A stretch of DNA of 58,049 nucleotides from Erysipelothrix anatis (GTDB taxonomy: Bacteria; Bacillota_I; Bacilli_A; Erysipelotrichales; Erysipelotrichaceae). The notes under the pieces are model-generated. The model saw only the letters and a program-made list of their open reading frames with translations. It was not told the origin of the DNA and ran no database searches. The translations under genes and the position numbers were made by a program. Below are positions 21,330 to 28,164 of this stretch, one piece after another (the first letter of the stretch is position 1; the number at the start of each line of letters is the position of its first letter). Location: positions 1-58,049 of the forward strand of contig NZ_WTSX01000015.1 in the NCBI RefSeq assembly GCF_009828745.1, written 5' to 3'.

Positions 21330-21344
21330 CTTTTCTTAATAAGA

Positions 21345-21399
21345 GTCACATATTCTAACATTATCTTATGGTATTTTCACCGTAATGTCTTGCTATACT
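21345..21399 (+). promoter_or_regulatory. Promoter and upstream box of putative sRNA A1
   Basis: TGCTATACT at 21391-21399 is an extended -10. There is no -35 hexamer at the right distance. The box TCACATATTCTAACA begins at 21346, exactly 48 bases before the TATACT, the same spacing as in the other four units. This pattern suggests activation by a DNA-binding protein. Confidence 0.65.
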
Positions 21400-21404
21400 T
21401 ACAC

Positions 21405-21540
21405 ATGTAAGAACTCCTTCTTACGACTCAATAATAAGATCTTCTCCTATAATTCATTCCCTGTGAATTTAATGTATCTTATTATTCCATATTCTTTCCC
21501 CTTAAGAGAAAAACGAGGCACATAATCGCCTCTTTTTTTT
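21405..21540 (+). ncRNA. Putative small RNA A1 (C-rich-loop family)
   Basis: The predicted transcript is about 136 nt. It starts with a perfect 7-bp hairpin, GTAAGAA / TTCTTAC, with loop CTCC. An 11-bp helix (aataataagat 21430-21440 with atcttattatt 21476-21486) then encloses the linker CTTCTCCT and a hairpin AATTCA / TGAATT with loop TTCCCTG. A small hairpin with a CCCCTTA loop follows, and the terminator GAGGC / GCCTC plus eight T ends it. There is no start codon with a credible reading frame. Start and end are inferred from the -10 and the terminator. Confidence 0.75.
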
Positions 21541-21552
21541 ATTTCAAATGTA

Positions 21553-21607
21553 ATCACACATTCTAACACGAACCTGTGAAAGTTTATCCGTATTTGAGGG
21601 CTATACT
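21553..21607 (+). promoter_or_regulatory. Promoter and upstream box of putative sRNA A2
   Basis: TATACT at 21602-21607 is the -10, and the box TCACACATTCTAACA starts at 21554, again 48 bases upstream. The DNA between the box and the -10 differs from unit A1, so the conservation of box and spacing is not simply the result of a recent duplication. Confidence 0.65.
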
Positions 21608-21612
21608 TACAA

Positions 21613-21744
21613 ATGTAAGAACTCCTTCTTACGACCCTAATAAGATCTTCTCCTACAATTCATTCCCCTATGAATTACAATGTATCTTATTAATCCATAT
21701 TCTTTCCCTTAAAAGAAATGAGGCACATAATCGCCTCTTTTTTT
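21613..21744 (+). ncRNA. Putative small RNA A2 (C-rich-loop family)
   Basis: About 132 nt, parallel to A1: hairpin GTAAGAA / TTCTTAC with loop CTCC, a 9-bp helix (taataagat 21638-21646 with atcttatta 21684-21692), linker CTTCTCCT, hairpin AATTCAT / ATGAATT with loop TCCCCT, hairpin TTCTTT / AAAGAA with loop CCCTTA, and terminator GAGGC / GCCTC with seven T. Base changes relative to A1 keep the pairing (a U-G pair in A1 is U-A here), which supports RNA structure. Confidence 0.75.
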
Positions 21745-21804
21745 GTGTTTGATATGAAGTTGTCGTGAAGAAATTGGAGAACTGGGTGATGCTATGAAGT
21801 GCTA

Positions 21805-21813
21805 TGCTATAAT
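21805..21813 (+). promoter_or_regulatory. Extended -10 promoter of the two-component system
   Basis: TGCTATAAT stands 15 bases before the start codon of the response regulator. No TCACA box is found 48 bases upstream, so this promoter appears to differ from the sRNA promoters. Confidence 0.75.
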
Positions 21814-21828
21814 CAAAATGGTGATATT

Positions 21829-22500
21829 ATGGAAACAATACTTGTAATTGAAGATGAATTTGAAATTCGACGCTCACTCGTTAAGAACCTGGAAAAAGAG
21901 GGGTTTTTAGTTTATGCGACGGGTTATGCGGAGGAAGGATTTGACCTTCTTAGAAAACATCCAATAGATCTCATTTTATTAGATATGATGCTACCTCAAA
22001 TGCAAGGGGATGTGTTTTTGGAAACATTGCGCCAGCAGAATCAAACGATTCCAATAATTGTTATAAGTGCTTTGAGCGATGAGCAAATTCAATACAAAGC
22101 ATTTGATCATGATGTTGACGATTATGTCGTCAAACCATTTTCGATGAATATTCTCACATACAAAATTAAAGCAGTCCTCCGGCGGATTCCAAAAGATACA
22201 GCACCCGAAGATATGATTAATTATGCAGGCTTAGTGCTATCAATTGATAATTATGAAGTGCGTTATCACCAAACTGCTATTATTCTGACAGCTAAAGAAT
22301 TTGAGATTTTGCAGCTTTTGATGTTAAATATTGGACGTGTGTTTACCCGTGAGGAAATTTTAACACTGGTTTGGGGTTATGACTATTTTGGCGATGCTCG
22401 TAATATTGATGTGCACGTCAAGAATCTTCGTAAAAAACTTCCAATTCAATGTATTGCAACAATTAAGGGCGTTGGTTACCGTTTGGAGGTGAAATCATAA
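21829..22500 (+). CDS. OmpR/PhoB-family response regulator
   Basis: The receiver domain (residues 1-115) has the acidic pair in VIEDE, the phosphorylated Asp52 in LILLDMMLP, the Ser/Thr position in VISALSD and the Lys in DDYVVKPF, so it looks fully active. The winged-helix domain (about 128-223) ends with VHVKNLRKKLP and TIKGVGYRLEV, typical of OmpR-type DNA binding. I chose ATG 21829, preceded by ggtgat and in line with the family N-terminus; an upstream in-frame ATG at 21799 lies at or before the promoter. It overlaps the kinase gene by one base. The neighbouring sRNA promoters are candidate targets. Confidence 0.93.
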   Translation: METILVIEDEFEIRRSLVKNLEKEGFLVYATGYAEEGFDLLRKHPIDLILLDMMLPQMQGDVFLETLRQQNQTIPIIVISALSDEQIQYKAFDHDVDDYVVKPFSMNILTYKIKAVLRRIPKDTAPEDMINYAGLVLSIDNYEVRYHQTAIILTAKEFEILQLLMLNIGRVFTREEILTLVWGYDYFGDARNIDVHVKNLRKKLPIQCIATIKGVGYRLEVKS

Positions 22501-23870
22501 TGAAGTACTTTAAAAACCTCAAACTCTTTCCGAAAACATTTGCACTGACTTTAATTACAATCTTAACAACAATCATGGTCTTTGCGTTTGGCTTCAAATT
22601 TATGTATACATCGTATATTAATAGTTTTCTTGATAAGCAATTTAACAGTTCCGTCTCACAAGTACAGAATATGCTCGAAACTTCATCAATGGATAATCTT
22701 ATTTTGAATAATAAGCTAATTGAATTTGAGCGTAGTGCGGGAGTGTATATTGTCGTTACAGATGCATATCGCAATGTTGTGTATCCGTATACTGGTGGGA
22801 TTTATCTGCCATCTTTGGAAACGGCAACGACCCAAATTATTTCTGGTGATGTGAATATCTCTGCAAGTGTTGTGGGCACCACATCAACGGCGCGAACTAA
22901 AGAGTTTCAATTTCTTAATGCGGGAAATGTGTATACAGCCCGGATTGCCTCGAATACGGGTATTGATAATGAAATGTTCTCGTCAATATTTTTTAGTGTG
23001 ATGCCGTACATGGTTATTGTTGGTCTCATTGTTTCGGCACTCATATCTTACATTTATGCGCGGTATACCGCTCATAAAATTATTCACTTGAATCACATTA
23101 TGGAAAAAATGGAGTCGTTTCAATATGTCGCTTTAGATGCACCGGTTCGTGGTGATGAAATCGCAACCTTGGAAAATCAGATTGATCACTTATACAAACG
23201 TCTGATGCATGAGATGGATACTATACAAAAATTTGAAAAGGATCGCGATATCTTTATGAAAGGAAGTATTCATGAGCTTAAGACACCACTTATGGTCATG
23301 AGTTTGTATATTGAAGAGTTAATGCATGATGAAGAACTCCCGTTAAATTACCAGGAGATAATTTACGAACTAAATCATAAATTAGTGCACATGAATGCTT
23401 TGATTAACGAAACGCTAAAGGTTAGTCGCTTAGAATCAATTCGAGATATACCAAATCTAATTGTTAAAGAGCCATTAGAGACGGTACAGGCCTTGTATCA
23501 TCCTATGTTGGTTGATAATCGCCAACAACTTGATCTAGATATTACGTCTTCAACGGTACCAATGAGTGAATTAGATTTTAGTCGTGTCACTTCGAACTTA
23601 ATTGGAAATGCGATTCGCTATGGAACCGTTGATTCTACGATAAAAATGATACTCTCTGATACTGTGCTCAGTGTTTCAAATGTCTATGAAGGGGCATGGG
23701 ATGACAGTGTCAATCTTTGCGCACCGTTCACGAGCATGGGACAACATGATGACAGTCATGGACTGGGCCTCTATGTTGTATCGATGATTCTCAACAAATA
23801 CAACTATTCCTATAATTATATATACGATTCACGTGAACATTGTTTTACCTTTACCATATTTTTAAAATAG
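22500..23870 (+). CDS. Sensor histidine kinase
   Basis: The protein has two membrane segments (about 13-37 and 164-186) bracketing an extracytoplasmic sensor region of about 125 residues, then a linker of HAMP type, a dimerisation domain with phosphorylated His258 in GSIHELKTP, and an ATPase domain with N box NLIGNAIRYG and G2-like SHGLGLYVVSMILNKY. The 456 residues fit. The large extracytoplasmic loop separates it from the short-loop BceS type that senses through its ABC transporter. A terminator overlaps its stop codon, so the exporter genes behind it are transcribed separately. Confidence 0.93.
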   Translation: MKYFKNLKLFPKTFALTLITILTTIMVFAFGFKFMYTSYINSFLDKQFNSSVSQVQNMLETSSMDNLILNNKLIEFERSAGVYIVVTDAYRNVVYPYTGGIYLPSLETATTQIISGDVNISASVVGTTSTARTKEFQFLNAGNVYTARIASNTGIDNEMFSSIFFSVMPYMVIVGLIVSALISYIYARYTAHKIIHLNHIMEKMESFQYVALDAPVRGDEIATLENQIDHLYKRLMHEMDTIQKFEKDRDIFMKGSIHELKTPLMVMSLYIEELMHDEELPLNYQEIIYELNHKLVHMNALINETLKVSRLESIRDIPNLIVKEPLETVQALYHPMLVDNRQQLDLDITSSTVPMSELDFSRVTSNLIGNAIRYGTVDSTIKMILSDTVLSVSNVYEGAWDDSVNLCAPFTSMGQHDDSHGLGLYVVSMILNKYNYSYNYIYDSREHCFTFTIFLK

Positions 23871-23890
23871 AGCCTTCGGGCTCTTTTTTT
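23870..23890 (+). terminator. Terminator of the two-component operon
   Basis: Stem gagcc / ggctc with the stable loop ttcg, followed by seven T residues. The stem starts in the kinase stop codon. Confidence 0.9.
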
Positions 23891-23938
23891 ATCTTTACAC
23901 TAACTTCATCTTGACCCCATGAGTACTCCATATCTTAT

Positions 23939-23947
23939 TGTTATGAT
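23939..23947 (+). promoter_or_regulatory. Possible extended -10 promoter of the ABC exporter genes
   Basis: TGTTATGAT stands 24 bases before the permease start codon. A TTGACC hexamer lies at 23911-23916 but is 25 bases from this -10, too far for a normal promoter. Confidence 0.5.
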
Positions 23948-23970
23948 GGGTTCGAAAGCGAGGAATATAC

Positions 23971-25434
23971 ATGAATATTTATCAGCGGGCACTCACGAGT
24001 ATCTCGAAACGAAAGGGAAAAACACTCATCTTATTTATGGTTGTTTTTCTTCTTGGAAATTTAATTGCGGGTGCGGCGGCGGTCTACAATGCAACACAGC
24101 AATTAGAAACATCGATGAAAGAACAGTTGGGTGCAAAAGCACGCATTGATCTGGACTTTATGAATTTGAAACAGAATGATGTCATTATGCCATTAACCGC
24201 AGACCAAGCGGATGCGATTGGTGCGCTTCCTGAGGTAAAATCAGTTTCGTACCAATTAAATACGCATATGGGTTCAGAAAAGCTAAAGCGCTATACTCAA
24301 GAAAAGCAAGATGAGACAACCAATGGCATCATGATTTCTGGAAGTGCCAGTCTTGCGGACTTTGCGAATTTCAGTTTAGTGGGAAGTAGACATGAACTCC
24401 CAGATGCATTTATGAATGGAAAGCAAAAAATTATCGAAGGAAGGTATCCCAAAGCAAGTGACACCGAACGTGAAATTCTTATTTCCAAGAAACTTGCATC
24501 ACAAAATGCGCTCGAATTGGGATCTGAAATTACATTGGATCATAGCCTAGTAGAATTTGATCCGAAAGCACAAGACATCAACGTTAAACAAAAGGAATCG
24601 TTTACCTTTAAAGTTGTAGGAATATTTGACACGACAGACTCAGCGTCAAGTAATGACCCGATGGCATCTTTTATGGAAGAAGGACAACACAATACCCTGT
24701 ACACGAACTATGAGTTTCTAGCGGCCTTAGATCTAGCGGATGCTAAAGTCATGGCAACATTTGAAAAAGGTTTTTGTAACAGTGTTGAAACATGTCGTAC
24801 CATGGTAACGCCCACGTATGAATTAACGTCACCCGATGTTATTGATCAGTTTGTTGAAAAGGCAAACCAACTGCTTAATAGTAAGCAATTTAAAATCGAA
24901 ACGACTAAAGACAGTTTTGATGCCGTTGCTGGATCGCTAATGAACATGAAGGAAATGTCGAACACGATTTTACTATTTGGAGTTGGAGGATCTGTTTTGG
25001 TATTATCATTAGTTCTTATCTTGTTTATGCGTGATCGCAAACATGAGTTTGGTATCTATCAAGCTTTAGGTGAGACAAAACTAAAATCAATGTTCCAAGT
25101 ACTTCTAGAAGTTATCTTGATATCGGTACTAGCGGTAAGTTTAGCGCTCTTTACTGGATTGAAACTGGCAGGCGGCTTATCACAGTCGATGATTCAAAAT
25201 CAATTAAAACAACAAGAAACACCACCGGAAGGAAACTTTGTCATGAGTATTGGAGGGTCGGAAAACCAACTTACCGATATTACTGAGGAAGAGATTGCAA
25301 AAAACTTTAAAGTTGAAATTAGTCAAGAATATGTTGTGGTCTTTTATAGCATCATGCTTGGAACAACACTTGCTGCAACCATGGTTTCATCGATATATAT
25401 TTTAAGACTTAAACCAAGAGAAATTTTACTATAG
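23971..25434 (+). CDS. ABC transporter permease (MacB/FtsX type)
   Basis: The membrane topology is that of MacB-like exporters: one membrane segment near the N-terminus (about 18-39), a large extracytoplasmic domain of nearly 290 residues, then three segments near 330-352, 370-395 and 455-478. The last helices carry the FtsX pattern (VLSLVLILFMRDRKHEFGIYQALGETKLKSMFQVL). It is followed nine bases later by its ATPase. Exporters of this type move peptides or lipids, or sense antimicrobial peptides; the substrate here is unknown. The start has an aggaa ribosome-binding site. Confidence 0.88.
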   Translation: MNIYQRALTSISKRKGKTLILFMVVFLLGNLIAGAAAVYNATQQLETSMKEQLGAKARIDLDFMNLKQNDVIMPLTADQADAIGALPEVKSVSYQLNTHMGSEKLKRYTQEKQDETTNGIMISGSASLADFANFSLVGSRHELPDAFMNGKQKIIEGRYPKASDTEREILISKKLASQNALELGSEITLDHSLVEFDPKAQDINVKQKESFTFKVVGIFDTTDSASSNDPMASFMEEGQHNTLYTNYEFLAALDLADAKVMATFEKGFCNSVETCRTMVTPTYELTSPDVIDQFVEKANQLLNSKQFKIETTKDSFDAVAGSLMNMKEMSNTILLFGVGGSVLVLSLVLILFMRDRKHEFGIYQALGETKLKSMFQVLLEVILISVLAVSLALFTGLKLAGGLSQSMIQNQLKQQETPPEGNFVMSIGGSENQLTDITEEEIAKNFKVEISQEYVVVFYSIMLGTTLAATMVSSIYILRLKPREILL

Positions 25435-25443
25435 GAGGTATTT

Positions 25444-26103
25444 ATGTTAGAAATCGAAAATGTTTCATTTAGCTATCAGGATGGTACACAACGCAAAAAT
25501 GTCTTGGATGATATCAGTGCAAATTTTGAAAGGGGTGTTTTCTATACTATTTTAGGTGAATCGGGATCTGGAAAGACTACATTACTTTCAATGTTGAGTG
25601 CTTTAGATATCCCGGAAAAGGGACGAATTCTGTGCGATGGTCGTGACATTCAAAAGACAGGACTTCAGAAGTATCGGCGCAATGAGATTGGTATTGTCTT
25701 TCAGAATTTTCATTTGATCCCGTATATGTCAGGCTTACAAAATGTATTGGTAGCGATGTCTATTACCGACAATGAAGTAGGTGGAACACAACGAGCTCTT
25801 GAAATTCTAGAAGATTTAGGAATTACTGAACGTATGGCGAAACGTCCAGTAACGCAATTATCTGGGGGTGAACAACAACGTGTTGCGATTGCGCGTGCTC
25901 TTGCAACGGATATCGATATTATGCTCGCAGATGAGCCAACAGGTAATCTCGATAAGAAAACCCAACAGGAAATTATTAATGTCTTCAAAACATTGGCGCA
26001 TGAATATAATAAATGTGTTATTGTCGTTACACATTCTAATGATGTATCACGAGGTAGTGACAAAGTGTATCGAATGGAAGCGGGCAGACTGGTCGAAGGA
26101 TAA
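25444..26103 (+). CDS. ABC transporter ATP-binding protein (MacB/LolD type)
   Basis: This is a 219-residue ABC ATPase with Walker A GESGSGKTT, Q-loop in GIVFQNFHLIPYMSGLQNV, signature LSGGEQQRVAIARALA and Walker B IMLADEPTGNLD. The GNLD ending and the QNFHLIP segment are typical of the LolD/MacB/SalX subfamily that pairs with FtsX-type permeases. The ribosome-binding site is aggagg. Its stop codon is followed after one base by the TCACA box of the first downstream sRNA unit, so the array is packed directly against it. Confidence 0.93.
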   Translation: MLEIENVSFSYQDGTQRKNVLDDISANFERGVFYTILGESGSGKTTLLSMLSALDIPEKGRILCDGRDIQKTGLQKYRRNEIGIVFQNFHLIPYMSGLQNVLVAMSITDNEVGGTQRALEILEDLGITERMAKRPVTQLSGGEQQRVAIARALATDIDIMLADEPTGNLDKKTQQEIINVFKTLAHEYNKCVIVVTHSNDVSRGSDKVYRMEAGRLVEG

Positions 26104-26158
26104 GTCACATTTTCTTCCATAGTTCTATCGTGTTCTCATCACAAAGATACAATATACT
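26104..26158 (+). promoter_or_regulatory. Promoter and upstream box of putative sRNA B1
   Basis: TCACATTTTCTTCCA begins at 26105 and TATACT at 26153, a start-to-start distance of 48 bases. A second TCACA lies in the spacer at 26139. No -35 hexamer is found. Confidence 0.65.
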
Positions 26159-26164
26159 AACAGT

Positions 26165-26281
26165 GTAAGATAATTCTTACATATGTTAGTTCTCCAAATA
26201 ATTCATTCCCCTTTGAATTATCAGATATTACATATTCTTCTCCCTTAAAAAAACGAGGCTCATAATCGCCTCTTTTTTTTT
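26165..26281 (+). ncRNA. Putative small RNA B1 (C-rich-loop family)
   Basis: About 117 nt: hairpin TGTAAGA / TCTTACA with loop taat, linker GTTCTCC, hairpin ATAATTCA / TGAATTAT with loop TTCCCCTT, unpaired TTCTTCTCCCTT, terminator GAGGC / GCCTC with nine T. It shares the middle hairpin, the pyrimidine-rich segment and the terminator with units A1 and A2, although the 5' hairpin loop lacks CTCC. Confidence 0.75.
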
Positions 26282-26290
26282 GCAGAAACA

Positions 26291-26345
26291 GTCACATTTT
26301 CTTCCATAGTTCTATCGTATTCTCATCACAAAGATACAGTATACT
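26291..26345 (+). promoter_or_regulatory. Promoter and upstream box of putative sRNA B2
   Basis: TCACATTTTCTTCCA at 26292 and TATACT at 26340, again 48 bases apart. Confidence 0.65.
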
Positions 26346-26351
26346 AACAGT

Positions 26352-26468
26352 GTAAGATAATTCTTACATATGTTAGTTCTCCAAATAATTCATTCCCCTA
26401 TGAATTATCAGATATTACATATTCTTCTCCCTTAAAAAAAACGAGGCTCATAATTGCCTCTTTTTTTT
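26352..26468 (+). ncRNA. Putative small RNA B2 (C-rich-loop family)
   Basis: Nearly identical to B1, about 117 nt. The middle hairpin is one pair longer (ATAATTCAT / ATGAATTAT) with loop TCCCCT. The terminator stem is unchanged (GAGGC / GCCTC); the loop ends in tt instead of tc. Confidence 0.75.
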
Positions 26469-26478
26469 CGCAGAAACA

Positions 26479-26533
26479 GTCACATTTTCTTCCATAGTTC
26501 TATCGTATTCTCATCACAAAGGTACAGTATACT
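26479..26533 (+). promoter_or_regulatory. Promoter and upstream box of putative sRNA B3
   Basis: TCACATTTTCTTCCA at 26480 and TATACT at 26528, again 48 bases apart. Confidence 0.65.
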
Positions 26534-26539
26534 AACAGT

Positions 26540-26652
26540 GTAAGATAATTCTTACATATGTTAGTTCTCCAAATAATTCATTCCCCTGTGAATTATCAGA
26601 TATTACATATTCTTTCCCTTAAGAAAAAGAGGCCCATAATCGCCTCTTTTTT
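26540..26652 (+). ncRNA. Putative small RNA B3 (C-rich-loop family)
   Basis: About 113 nt. The middle hairpin has loop TCCCCT and a T-G closing pair. The last pyrimidine segment, TTCTTTCCCTTAAGAA, can fold as TTCTT / AAGAA with loop TCCCTT, as in the A units and unlike B1 and B2. The terminator is GAGGC / GCCTC with six T. Confidence 0.75.
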
Positions 26653-26804: not shown

Positions 26805-27494
26805 ATGATTACAATTATAAGTGAGGACGTCTTTAAAAGCCATGAGCTTCGAGACGCTTTAACGGGCATAAAATCCATTGTTGATGTGGTATCGCCATTA
26901 GAGGCATTGACACAAAACTATGGAGATATTTGCTTTGTTATGGATGCGCATATGGAACGATTCAACTGGATTGATTATTATGAGATTTTGAAATTTCAAA
27001 ATAAGAATTCTGCGATTGTATTGTTACATGATGATGGTGATGAAACGGAACTAGAAATCATTCAACGTGATATTCGATTCCATACACATCGCGATGCTAA
27101 CATTGATCTGATTAAAGCCTATGTACTGAAAGCTGTAACAGAATGTGATTCATTGAAAAAGACACGTAACTCTGGCTACGAGCCAATTCGTTATTTGGAT
27201 AATGATTTAGAAATAAATAACCTGACGAATACAATACAACGGGGTAAACAAATGGTTTCATTAACCGCGATTGAAAAAGAAATTCTCTTGTTGCTCATCG
27301 ATGCGAAAGAGAATATTGTAACACGTCAAGAAGTTATGGAAACACTCTATCCAGAAAAACGCGATGATGAGAGTGTGAACCACCGTTTCGTTGATGTTCA
27401 CATTAAGAACATTCGTGACAAACTCGGCCGTGATTCAATTCGAACCGTCCGTGGTCGTGGCTATTTCATCAACTTAAATGCAATTTTAGGATAA
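26805..27494 (+). CDS. Orphan OmpR-type regulator with degenerate receiver domain
   Basis: The C-terminal part (about 140-229) is a clear OmpR/PhoB winged helix (VSLTAIEKEILLLLIDAKENIVTRQEVMETLYP, VDVHIKNIRDKLGRDSIRTVRGRGYFIN). The N-terminal 120 residues have receiver-like spacing with an Asp in CFVMDAHM, but the conserved Thr/Ser position reads LLHDD and the Lys of the KP motif is missing (RFHTHRDA). Control by phosphorylation is therefore doubtful. No kinase is adjacent. The ribosome-binding site is a run of eight G (26791-26798), six bases from ATG and complementary to the C-rich loops of the adjacent sRNAs. Confidence 0.82.
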   Translation: MITIISEDVFKSHELRDALTGIKSIVDVVSPLEALTQNYGDICFVMDAHMERFNWIDYYEILKFQNKNSAIVLLHDDGDETELEIIQRDIRFHTHRDANIDLIKAYVLKAVTECDSLKKTRNSGYEPIRYLDNDLEINNLTNTIQRGKQMVSLTAIEKEILLLLIDAKENIVTRQEVMETLYPEKRDDESVNHRFVDVHIKNIRDKLGRDSIRTVRGRGYFINLNAILG

Positions 27495-27651: not shown

Positions 27652-28164
27652 ATGATTTTTGTTAGAAATGATTTGGACAAGCTAACGTCACAACGTATCG
27701 ATCTGGATGAGGCTGTGGAATTAGACCCAACACGACTTAAAGAAAACCCTCGTCTCTTAGGTTTACGTGATATCTTCGCAGTAGGTCATGGTTATTATGA
27801 CAGCCACTCTTCAAGACTGATTTTAGATCTTCGGGTTGAGGGGATCATGACAGTGCCTTGTGCGATAACGTTACGTCCATTTGATATTGAATTCTCAGTA
27901 CGTGTGGATGATATGTTTAGTTTTGATCCATTAGGACCAGAAGACGAAGGTATAGAAGAAGTTGAAGGGGAAACACTTGATTTGTCTCCATACTTTATGG
28001 ATGCAATCTTTGCTGAAGTTCCACTGAAAGCAGTTCACCCGGATTTGGAAACATATCCTGAAGGTGATGGCTGGGTAGTGATGACTGAAGAAGATTATAT
28101 AAACGAAAAAAGTCAAGAAATTGATCCTAGACTCGCGAAATTGAAAGATTTCAAGTTTGATTAA
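27652..28164 (+). CDS. yceD: YceD family protein (DUF177)
   Basis: This 170-residue acidic protein has the DUF177 pattern, with strand-rich [28 protein letters not shown] followed by an acidic segment [35 protein letters not shown]. Members are always found next to rpmF and are needed for normal 23S rRNA levels in studied species. The Cys pair seen in many members is reduced to a single Cys here. rpmF follows after 14 bases, under one consensus promoter. Confidence 0.9.

Follow-up and report, generated by a model that had tools for sequence, protein, structure and literature searches.

A family of structured, C-rich small RNAs behind a direct-repeat promoter box in the Erysipelotrichaceae

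Results

The DNA analysed here (the window) is a single contig of 58,049 nucleotides (nt) from Erysipelothrix anatis (NZ_WTSX01000015.1), an Erysipelothrix close to E. aquatica, in whose genome (G007) the exporter permease of the locus is 95% identical. It carries five similar units with the features of small RNA (sRNA) genes, two of which (U1 and U2) lie before, and three (D1–D3) after, a block of genes for a response regulator, a histidine kinase, a permease and an ATPase (Table 1). A first-pass annotation of this DNA had described them as five copies of an undescribed sRNA with transcripts of 113–136 nt, and the units are indeed present where it placed them, each with a box, a -10 hexamer, a structured transcript and a terminator. 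The box opens a series of about four weak direct repeats that recur every 10–11 bp, and in all five units exactly 48 nt separate the start of the box from TATACT. The inferred transcripts of U1, U2, D1, D2 and D3 measure 135, 131, 117, 117 and 113 nt, in line with the lengths first proposed, and all end in a terminator of the form GAGGC(N8)GCCTC followed by a T run. At the transcript level U1 and U2 are 89% identical and D1–D3 93–97%, versus 73–74% between the arrays, which agrees with the annotated closeness within each array and supports an old divergence of two arrays that kept one design.

The transcripts are poor in G (10–13 per 113–135 nt), and they fold 5.9–8.3 standard deviations better than dinucleotide-preserving shuffles, with none of 200 shuffles as good for any of the units. 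In U1, a 5’ stem-loop is followed by UUCUCC, a CCC-loop hairpin within an outer stem, UUCUUUCCCC and the terminator; the outer stem is weaker in the downstream units than in the upstream ones.

Table 1. Features of the sRNA locus and of the neighbouring block, in window coordinates; the right-hand position of each sRNA is the inferred transcript end (CM, covariance model; R1, first model built in this study).
Feature	Position	Strand	Evidence or remark
Promoter box U1	21346..21360	+	TCACATATTCTAACA; spans repeats 1 and 2 of about four (weak, direct)
-10 hexamer U1	21394..21399	+	TATACT
sRNA U1	21405..21540	+	terminator 21515-21540; CM 73.2 bits; fold z -5.9; start inferred
Promoter box U2	21554..21568	+	TCACACATTCTAACA
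-10 hexamer U2	21602..21607	+	TATACT
sRNA U2 with terminator	21613..21744	+	CM 76.7 bits; fold z -6.4
Promoter box D1	26105..26119	+	TCACATTTTCTTCCA
-10 hexamer D1	26153..26158	+	TATACT
sRNA D1 with terminator	26163..26281	+	R1 CM 48.4 bits, outside training; fold z -6.3
Promoter box D2	26292..26306	+	
-10 hexamer D2	26340..26345	+	TATACT
sRNA D2 with terminator	26350..26468	+	R1 CM 52.1 bits, outside training; fold z -7.5
Promoter box D3	26480..26494	+	
-10 hexamer D3	26528..26533	+	TATACT
sRNA D3 with terminator	26538..26652	+	R1 CM 54.6 bits, outside training; fold z -8.3
OmpR/PhoB-type response regulator (neighbour, outside the family)	21829..22500	+	Pfam Response_reg, Trans_reg_C
Sensor histidine kinase (neighbour)	22500..23870	+	Pfam HisKA, HATPase_c
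FtsX/MacB-type permease (neighbour, separate promoter)	23971..25434	+	Pfam; promoter comparison
ATP-binding cassette (ABC) transporter ATPase, LolD/FtsE-like (neighbour)	25444..26103	+	

In early MAFFT alignments (A1–A4) the two arrays were wrongly matched and no covariation was seen, while an alignment seeded with intermediate sequences (A5) and a model-based one (A7) brought both arrays into register. Among 45 distinct sequences, 83.4% of the cells in three helices are paired, compared to 33–42% when the partners are slid by 1–3 columns, and double compensatory changes occur in 21 of the 24 pairs. The covariation score reaches 0.322, versus 0.035–0.068 for slid partners and a level that none of 500 shuffles attained. 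Compensatory changes exceeding the controls in this manner are what is expected of a structured RNA. It should be noted that A7 was fitted to the model, which biases its pairing percentages towards structure; neither the slid controls nor the finding of the box at held-out loci (described below) depends on this fit, and the gap between real and slid pairing is too big to result from such bias alone. As such, the alignments show that the predicted secondary structure is conserved across the family. The consensus comprises a 5’ stem-loop, an outer stem that in most members encloses a small hairpin with a C-rich loop, C-rich single strands and the terminator. It is the unpaired C-rich parts that are conserved in sequence, to the point of being nearly invariant: CUUCUCCUA, UCCCC in the inner loop (not present in every copy), and, ahead of the terminator, UUCUWUCCCC. 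Both UUCUCCU and UUCUUUCCCC are unpaired in single folds as well as in the consensus.

Covariance model R1 was built from a ten-sequence alignment with a clean consensus, leaving out D1–D3, and it recovered all three of these untrained units (48–55 bits). With R1, the RNA was found in each of the 11 high-quality Erysipelothrix genomes (completeness of at least 90%), in one to six copies, and in seven other genera of the Erysipelotrichaceae. A second model (R2), built from 58 aligned hits, was run against 316 genomes of the order from 80 genera; it located the RNA in 45 genomes and 18 genera, all within this one family, and gave no match in the approximately 43 genomes belonging to other families of the order. 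Copy number is mostly one outside Erysipelothrix. Searching with C-rich motif patterns revealed further copies, namely three in a second Erysipelothrix genome (G003), tandem copies between xerC and yceD in Erysipelothrix sp. HDW6A (G010), and a sixth copy in the genome of the window that adjoins xerC (G000:C24:129738-129818). Matches of the genome-wide pattern in Peptoniphilaceae lay inside an ABC-transporter gene and were discarded as chance. The interval between xerC and yceD holds RNA copies in several Erysipelothrix genomes and is their usual place in the genus, while outside it no constant neighbouring gene was seen.

Some of these copies have peculiar surroundings. Six tandem copies in G012 (L111, G012:C1:1959669-1961375) have a box with TCCCA instead of TCACA, and one transposase insertion nearby. 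The xerC-yceD interval of G003 (L090, G003:C1:1830000-1845000) carries cargo between its sRNA copies, including PTS (phosphotransferase system) genes and a gene for a surface protein of 1607 amino acids, and may be an insertion hotspot. The E. aquatica contig stops within the third downstream repeat (L034, G007:C32:26463), an assembly break at the repeats.

Both the box and the terminator fall outside the covariance models, which describe the RNA only, and this makes the upstream sequence informative. The box, TCACAYAAT-YTWACA, stands at -58 to -60 relative to the model start. For a held-out set we took 19 R2 loci and removed one (L311) that occupies the same place as a training locus (L151); 17 of the remaining 18, some of which are near-identical, have TCACAYANTTTNACA with at least 13 of 15 positions matching at -58 to -60, and they derive from eleven genera. 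In Markov-shuffled upstream regions, 13 matches were reached at any position in only about 2%. Most held-out loci also have a -10-like hexamer just 5’ of the model start, and hairpins resembling intrinsic terminators, with T runs, lie 3’ of the RNA. Conversely, all 14 exact boxes (TCACAYAATYTWACA) in 13 Erysipelothrix genomes precede small-RNA units; the model detects 11 of these and misses three, in G001, G008 and G011, which have diverged but are laid out similarly. We are therefore highly confident that the common promoter element is part of this RNA family. The RNAs have their own promoter and intrinsic terminator and no consistent downstream gene, as is typical of independent genes, and across loci the box, the -10 and the terminator bear out their annotation as such.

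Behind the same box we also observed a second, diverged class of sRNA-like units that the covariance model misses (L222, L223, L224, L246 and L251), located downstream of a major facilitator superfamily (MFS) transporter gene wherever the gene could be identified. One-mismatch boxes precede members of this class after the MFS gene in the window’s genome (L246, G000:C24, near 153934) and in G002 (L251). A further one-mismatch box (L242, G000:C22:125504), at a similar distance from a TATAAT, stands before a pair of membrane-protein genes, which are possibly a protein-coding member of the regulon. At L204–L213, a canonical PHO box (TTAACA-N5-TTAAC) occurs at pst promoters beside a phoH-phoP-phoR-pstSCAB-phoU cluster.

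Searching Rfam 15 with the window returned only a 5S rRNA and a tRNA at gathering score and nothing for the sRNA units, and a permissive search of seven other loci with copies gave three sub-threshold chance hits only. The check that the first-pass annotation had suggested, covariance model searches of Rfam and of Erysipelotrichia genomes, thus recovered the family in the genomes and no counterpart in Rfam, where no mobile or rRNA-derived repeat matches it either. A literature search that covered few subscription journals turned up no paper describing the RNA, and none of the papers on E. rhusiopathiae small RNAs that we searched reports a base-pairing regulatory RNA. The family therefore still counts as undescribed, and the units almost certainly represent a new family within a known kind of RNA.

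What, then, is its relation to the adjacent two-component system and exporter, to which the earlier annotation had linked it? Orthologues of the response regulator occur only in E. aquatica (95% identity) and G003 (56%); elsewhere the best matches are paralogues of 31–45% identity. The orthologous block of G003, with a permease of 43% identity, has no family RNA before or after it, also by blastn, and the boxed RNA copies of that genome lie between xerC and yceD, away from the block. In three genomes inferred to be E. rhusiopathiae-like (G002, G006 and G009), the block is absent while RNA and box are present. The block promoters of the window’s genome and G003 lack the sRNA box and have common motifs of their own, ATGAAGTT at the regulator and TTCAT at the permease. 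These observations do not support the proposed link, and the position of the block beside the RNAs is probably incidental. The annotation had also predicted that matches would be found at homologous two-component/exporter loci; they were found instead beside xerC/yceD and unrelated genes. In the window, yceD (27652-28164) lies just past the downstream array, with xerC and one RNA copy on another contig, and the simplest history would be that the xerC-yceD interval was broken and the block gained. The block would then merely sit in a stretch where RNA copies multiplied and moved, for which a functional link is not needed.

Two features of the surroundings stand apart from the family. Before the regulator (21745-21830) lies ATGAAGTT, shared with G003 and E. 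aquatica, and before the permease (23870-23970) lies AACTTCAT; both are likely the two-component system’s own autoregulation motif. Past the downstream array, a gene at 26805-27494 encodes a regulator with an OmpR-type DNA-binding domain and no Pfam receiver-domain match, and has an unusual run of eight Gs as its ribosome-binding site, which could be an sRNA target or a slippage-prone start.

Discussion

Based on the features described above, we consider it likely that the five units are trans-acting sRNAs that are activated by an OmpR/PhoB-type response regulator and block Shine-Dalgarno (SD) sequences. The direct TNACA repeats at 10–11 bp upstream of the -10, in combination with the lack of a good -35, point to this type of activation, and the regulator that would switch on transcription is probably not the adjacent one. 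The C-rich single strands (UUCUCCU, UCCCC and UUCUUUCCCC) would pair with ribosome-binding sites and thereby switch off mRNAs, and several copies would add dosage and, where their loops differ, target range. Repression through SD pairing seems to us reasonably probable. Duplexes with motif 3 averaged -9.0 kcal/mol at gene starts and -4.95 kcal/mol at random sites, although the procedure that picked the starts favoured SD sites.

Several considerations weigh against this interpretation. Pairing with SD sites is open to any RNA rich in C, and complementarity by itself therefore proves little. The target and regulon scans covered single genome stretches; within these, the search for the exact complement of UCUUUCCCC before an ATG in 13 genomes hit mainly the antisense strand of the sRNAs and gave no convincing conserved target, one lipoprotein gene in G009 and G002 being a weak lead. 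Likewise, the box was not encountered at the genes’ own promoters in 14 further response-regulator gene regions of two species.

Which regulator could be involved? One option is the Pho or WalR regulon, with the sRNAs as members and the box as a TNACA-N4/5-TNACA variant of a PhoP or WalR site. In the core of its repeats, and in lying at about -60 to -25, the box resembles a PHO box, and PhoPR-pst-phoU clusters occur in Erysipelothrix, but the pst promoters of this genus carry the canonical repeat at 11 bp, with bases and spacing unlike those of the sRNA box. This comparison, though an indirect test, lowers the case for PhoP, while WalR or another paralogue is possible; on the whole we regard membership of either regulon as doubtful. 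Less probable still is a local circuit resembling that of CiaRH, in which the five sRNAs would be switched on by the neighbouring two-component system (21829-23870) and would in turn tune the exporter. Such a circuit would fit the arrays flanking the block in the window’s genome and in its close relative E. aquatica, as well as a box that resembles a response-regulator site. However, it is difficult to reconcile with same-box RNAs in species that have only paralogues of the regulator, with the RNA-free block of G003, or with ATGAAGTT in place of the sRNA box at the regulator’s own promoters.

That the units are not functional RNAs at all, but a mobile repeat or non-autonomous element akin to a miniature inverted-repeat transposable element, is highly improbable: the occurrence of copies in tandem and at more than one place in a genome, some of them close to transposase genes (L107, L111), would suit it, yet copy numbers stay between one and six, and mostly at one outside the genus, stems are kept by compensatory changes, other genera with a single copy have kept its promoter and terminator, and the xerC-yceD place is conserved within Erysipelothrix. 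We equally reject the notion that the RNA is an mRNA for small peptides, since the short ATG frames that exist (e.g. 21–34 codons in D1–D3) lack a preceding ribosome-binding site, are absent from U1 and U2, differ even between D1/D2 and D3, and are not what the sequence changes preserve, which is the stems.

Returning to sRNAs activated by an OmpR/PhoB-type regulator, the finding of the strict box only before sRNA units raises a more speculative idea, namely that a response-regulator system specific to the Erysipelotrichaceae has a regulon consisting almost entirely of sRNAs (the main family and the diverged class behind the MFS gene). We put this forward tentatively; if true, one signal would be turned directly into broad translational repression via anti-SD RNAs. 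Hardly any regulatory RNAs that act by base pairing are known from the Erysipelotrichia, a class that includes the swine and human pathogen E. rhusiopathiae and many gut bacteria. For this family-wide sRNA a covariance model is now available, the promoter element is defined and the seed motifs are clear, which makes regulator, signal and targets directly testable.

How does this RNA compare to known systems? RsaE/RoxS of Bacillus and Staphylococcus is a short RNA that acts in trans and has several C-rich regions through which it can pair with SD sequences; in its promoter, an upstream site for a response regulator (ResD/SrrA) is conserved near -65 (PMC4409812). The Erysipelotrichaceae RNA likewise has several C-rich stretches that could pair with SD sites, and an upstream box that looks like a response-regulator site. 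In contrast, the Rfam RsaE model does not match it, its structure and promoter box are different, and it occurs in several tandem copies in the window. The cia-dependent small RNAs (csRNAs) of the streptococcal CiaRH regulon are likewise present in several similar copies in each genome, all preceded by one type of direct-repeat box close to the -10 (the CiaR box, NTTAAG-N5-TTTAAG, lies about 10 nt before it), and between their stem-loops are unpaired stretches with complementarity to SD sites (PMC3091779). Our RNAs share the several copies behind one box, and the unpaired stretch complementary to SD and start codon between stem-loops. As such, the analogy with csRNAs drawn in the first-pass annotation is apt for the proposed mode of action, and the sequences are, as it supposed, unrelated. 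Unlike csRNAs, all units have TCACA..TNACA repeats rather than a CiaR box (TCACAYAATYTWACA at 10–11 bp versus TTTAAG-N5-TTTAAG), a more complex fold of three stems, and a regulator that is, as far as shown, not CiaR. By analogy, the Erysipelotrichaceae RNA most likely works like RsaE/RoxS and the csRNAs, while the lack of an Rfam match, the different box and the different fold make it a member of neither. Together with RsaE/RoxS and the csRNAs, it would make a third case, seemingly independent, in which a C-rich sRNA is linked to an activator box of direct repeats.

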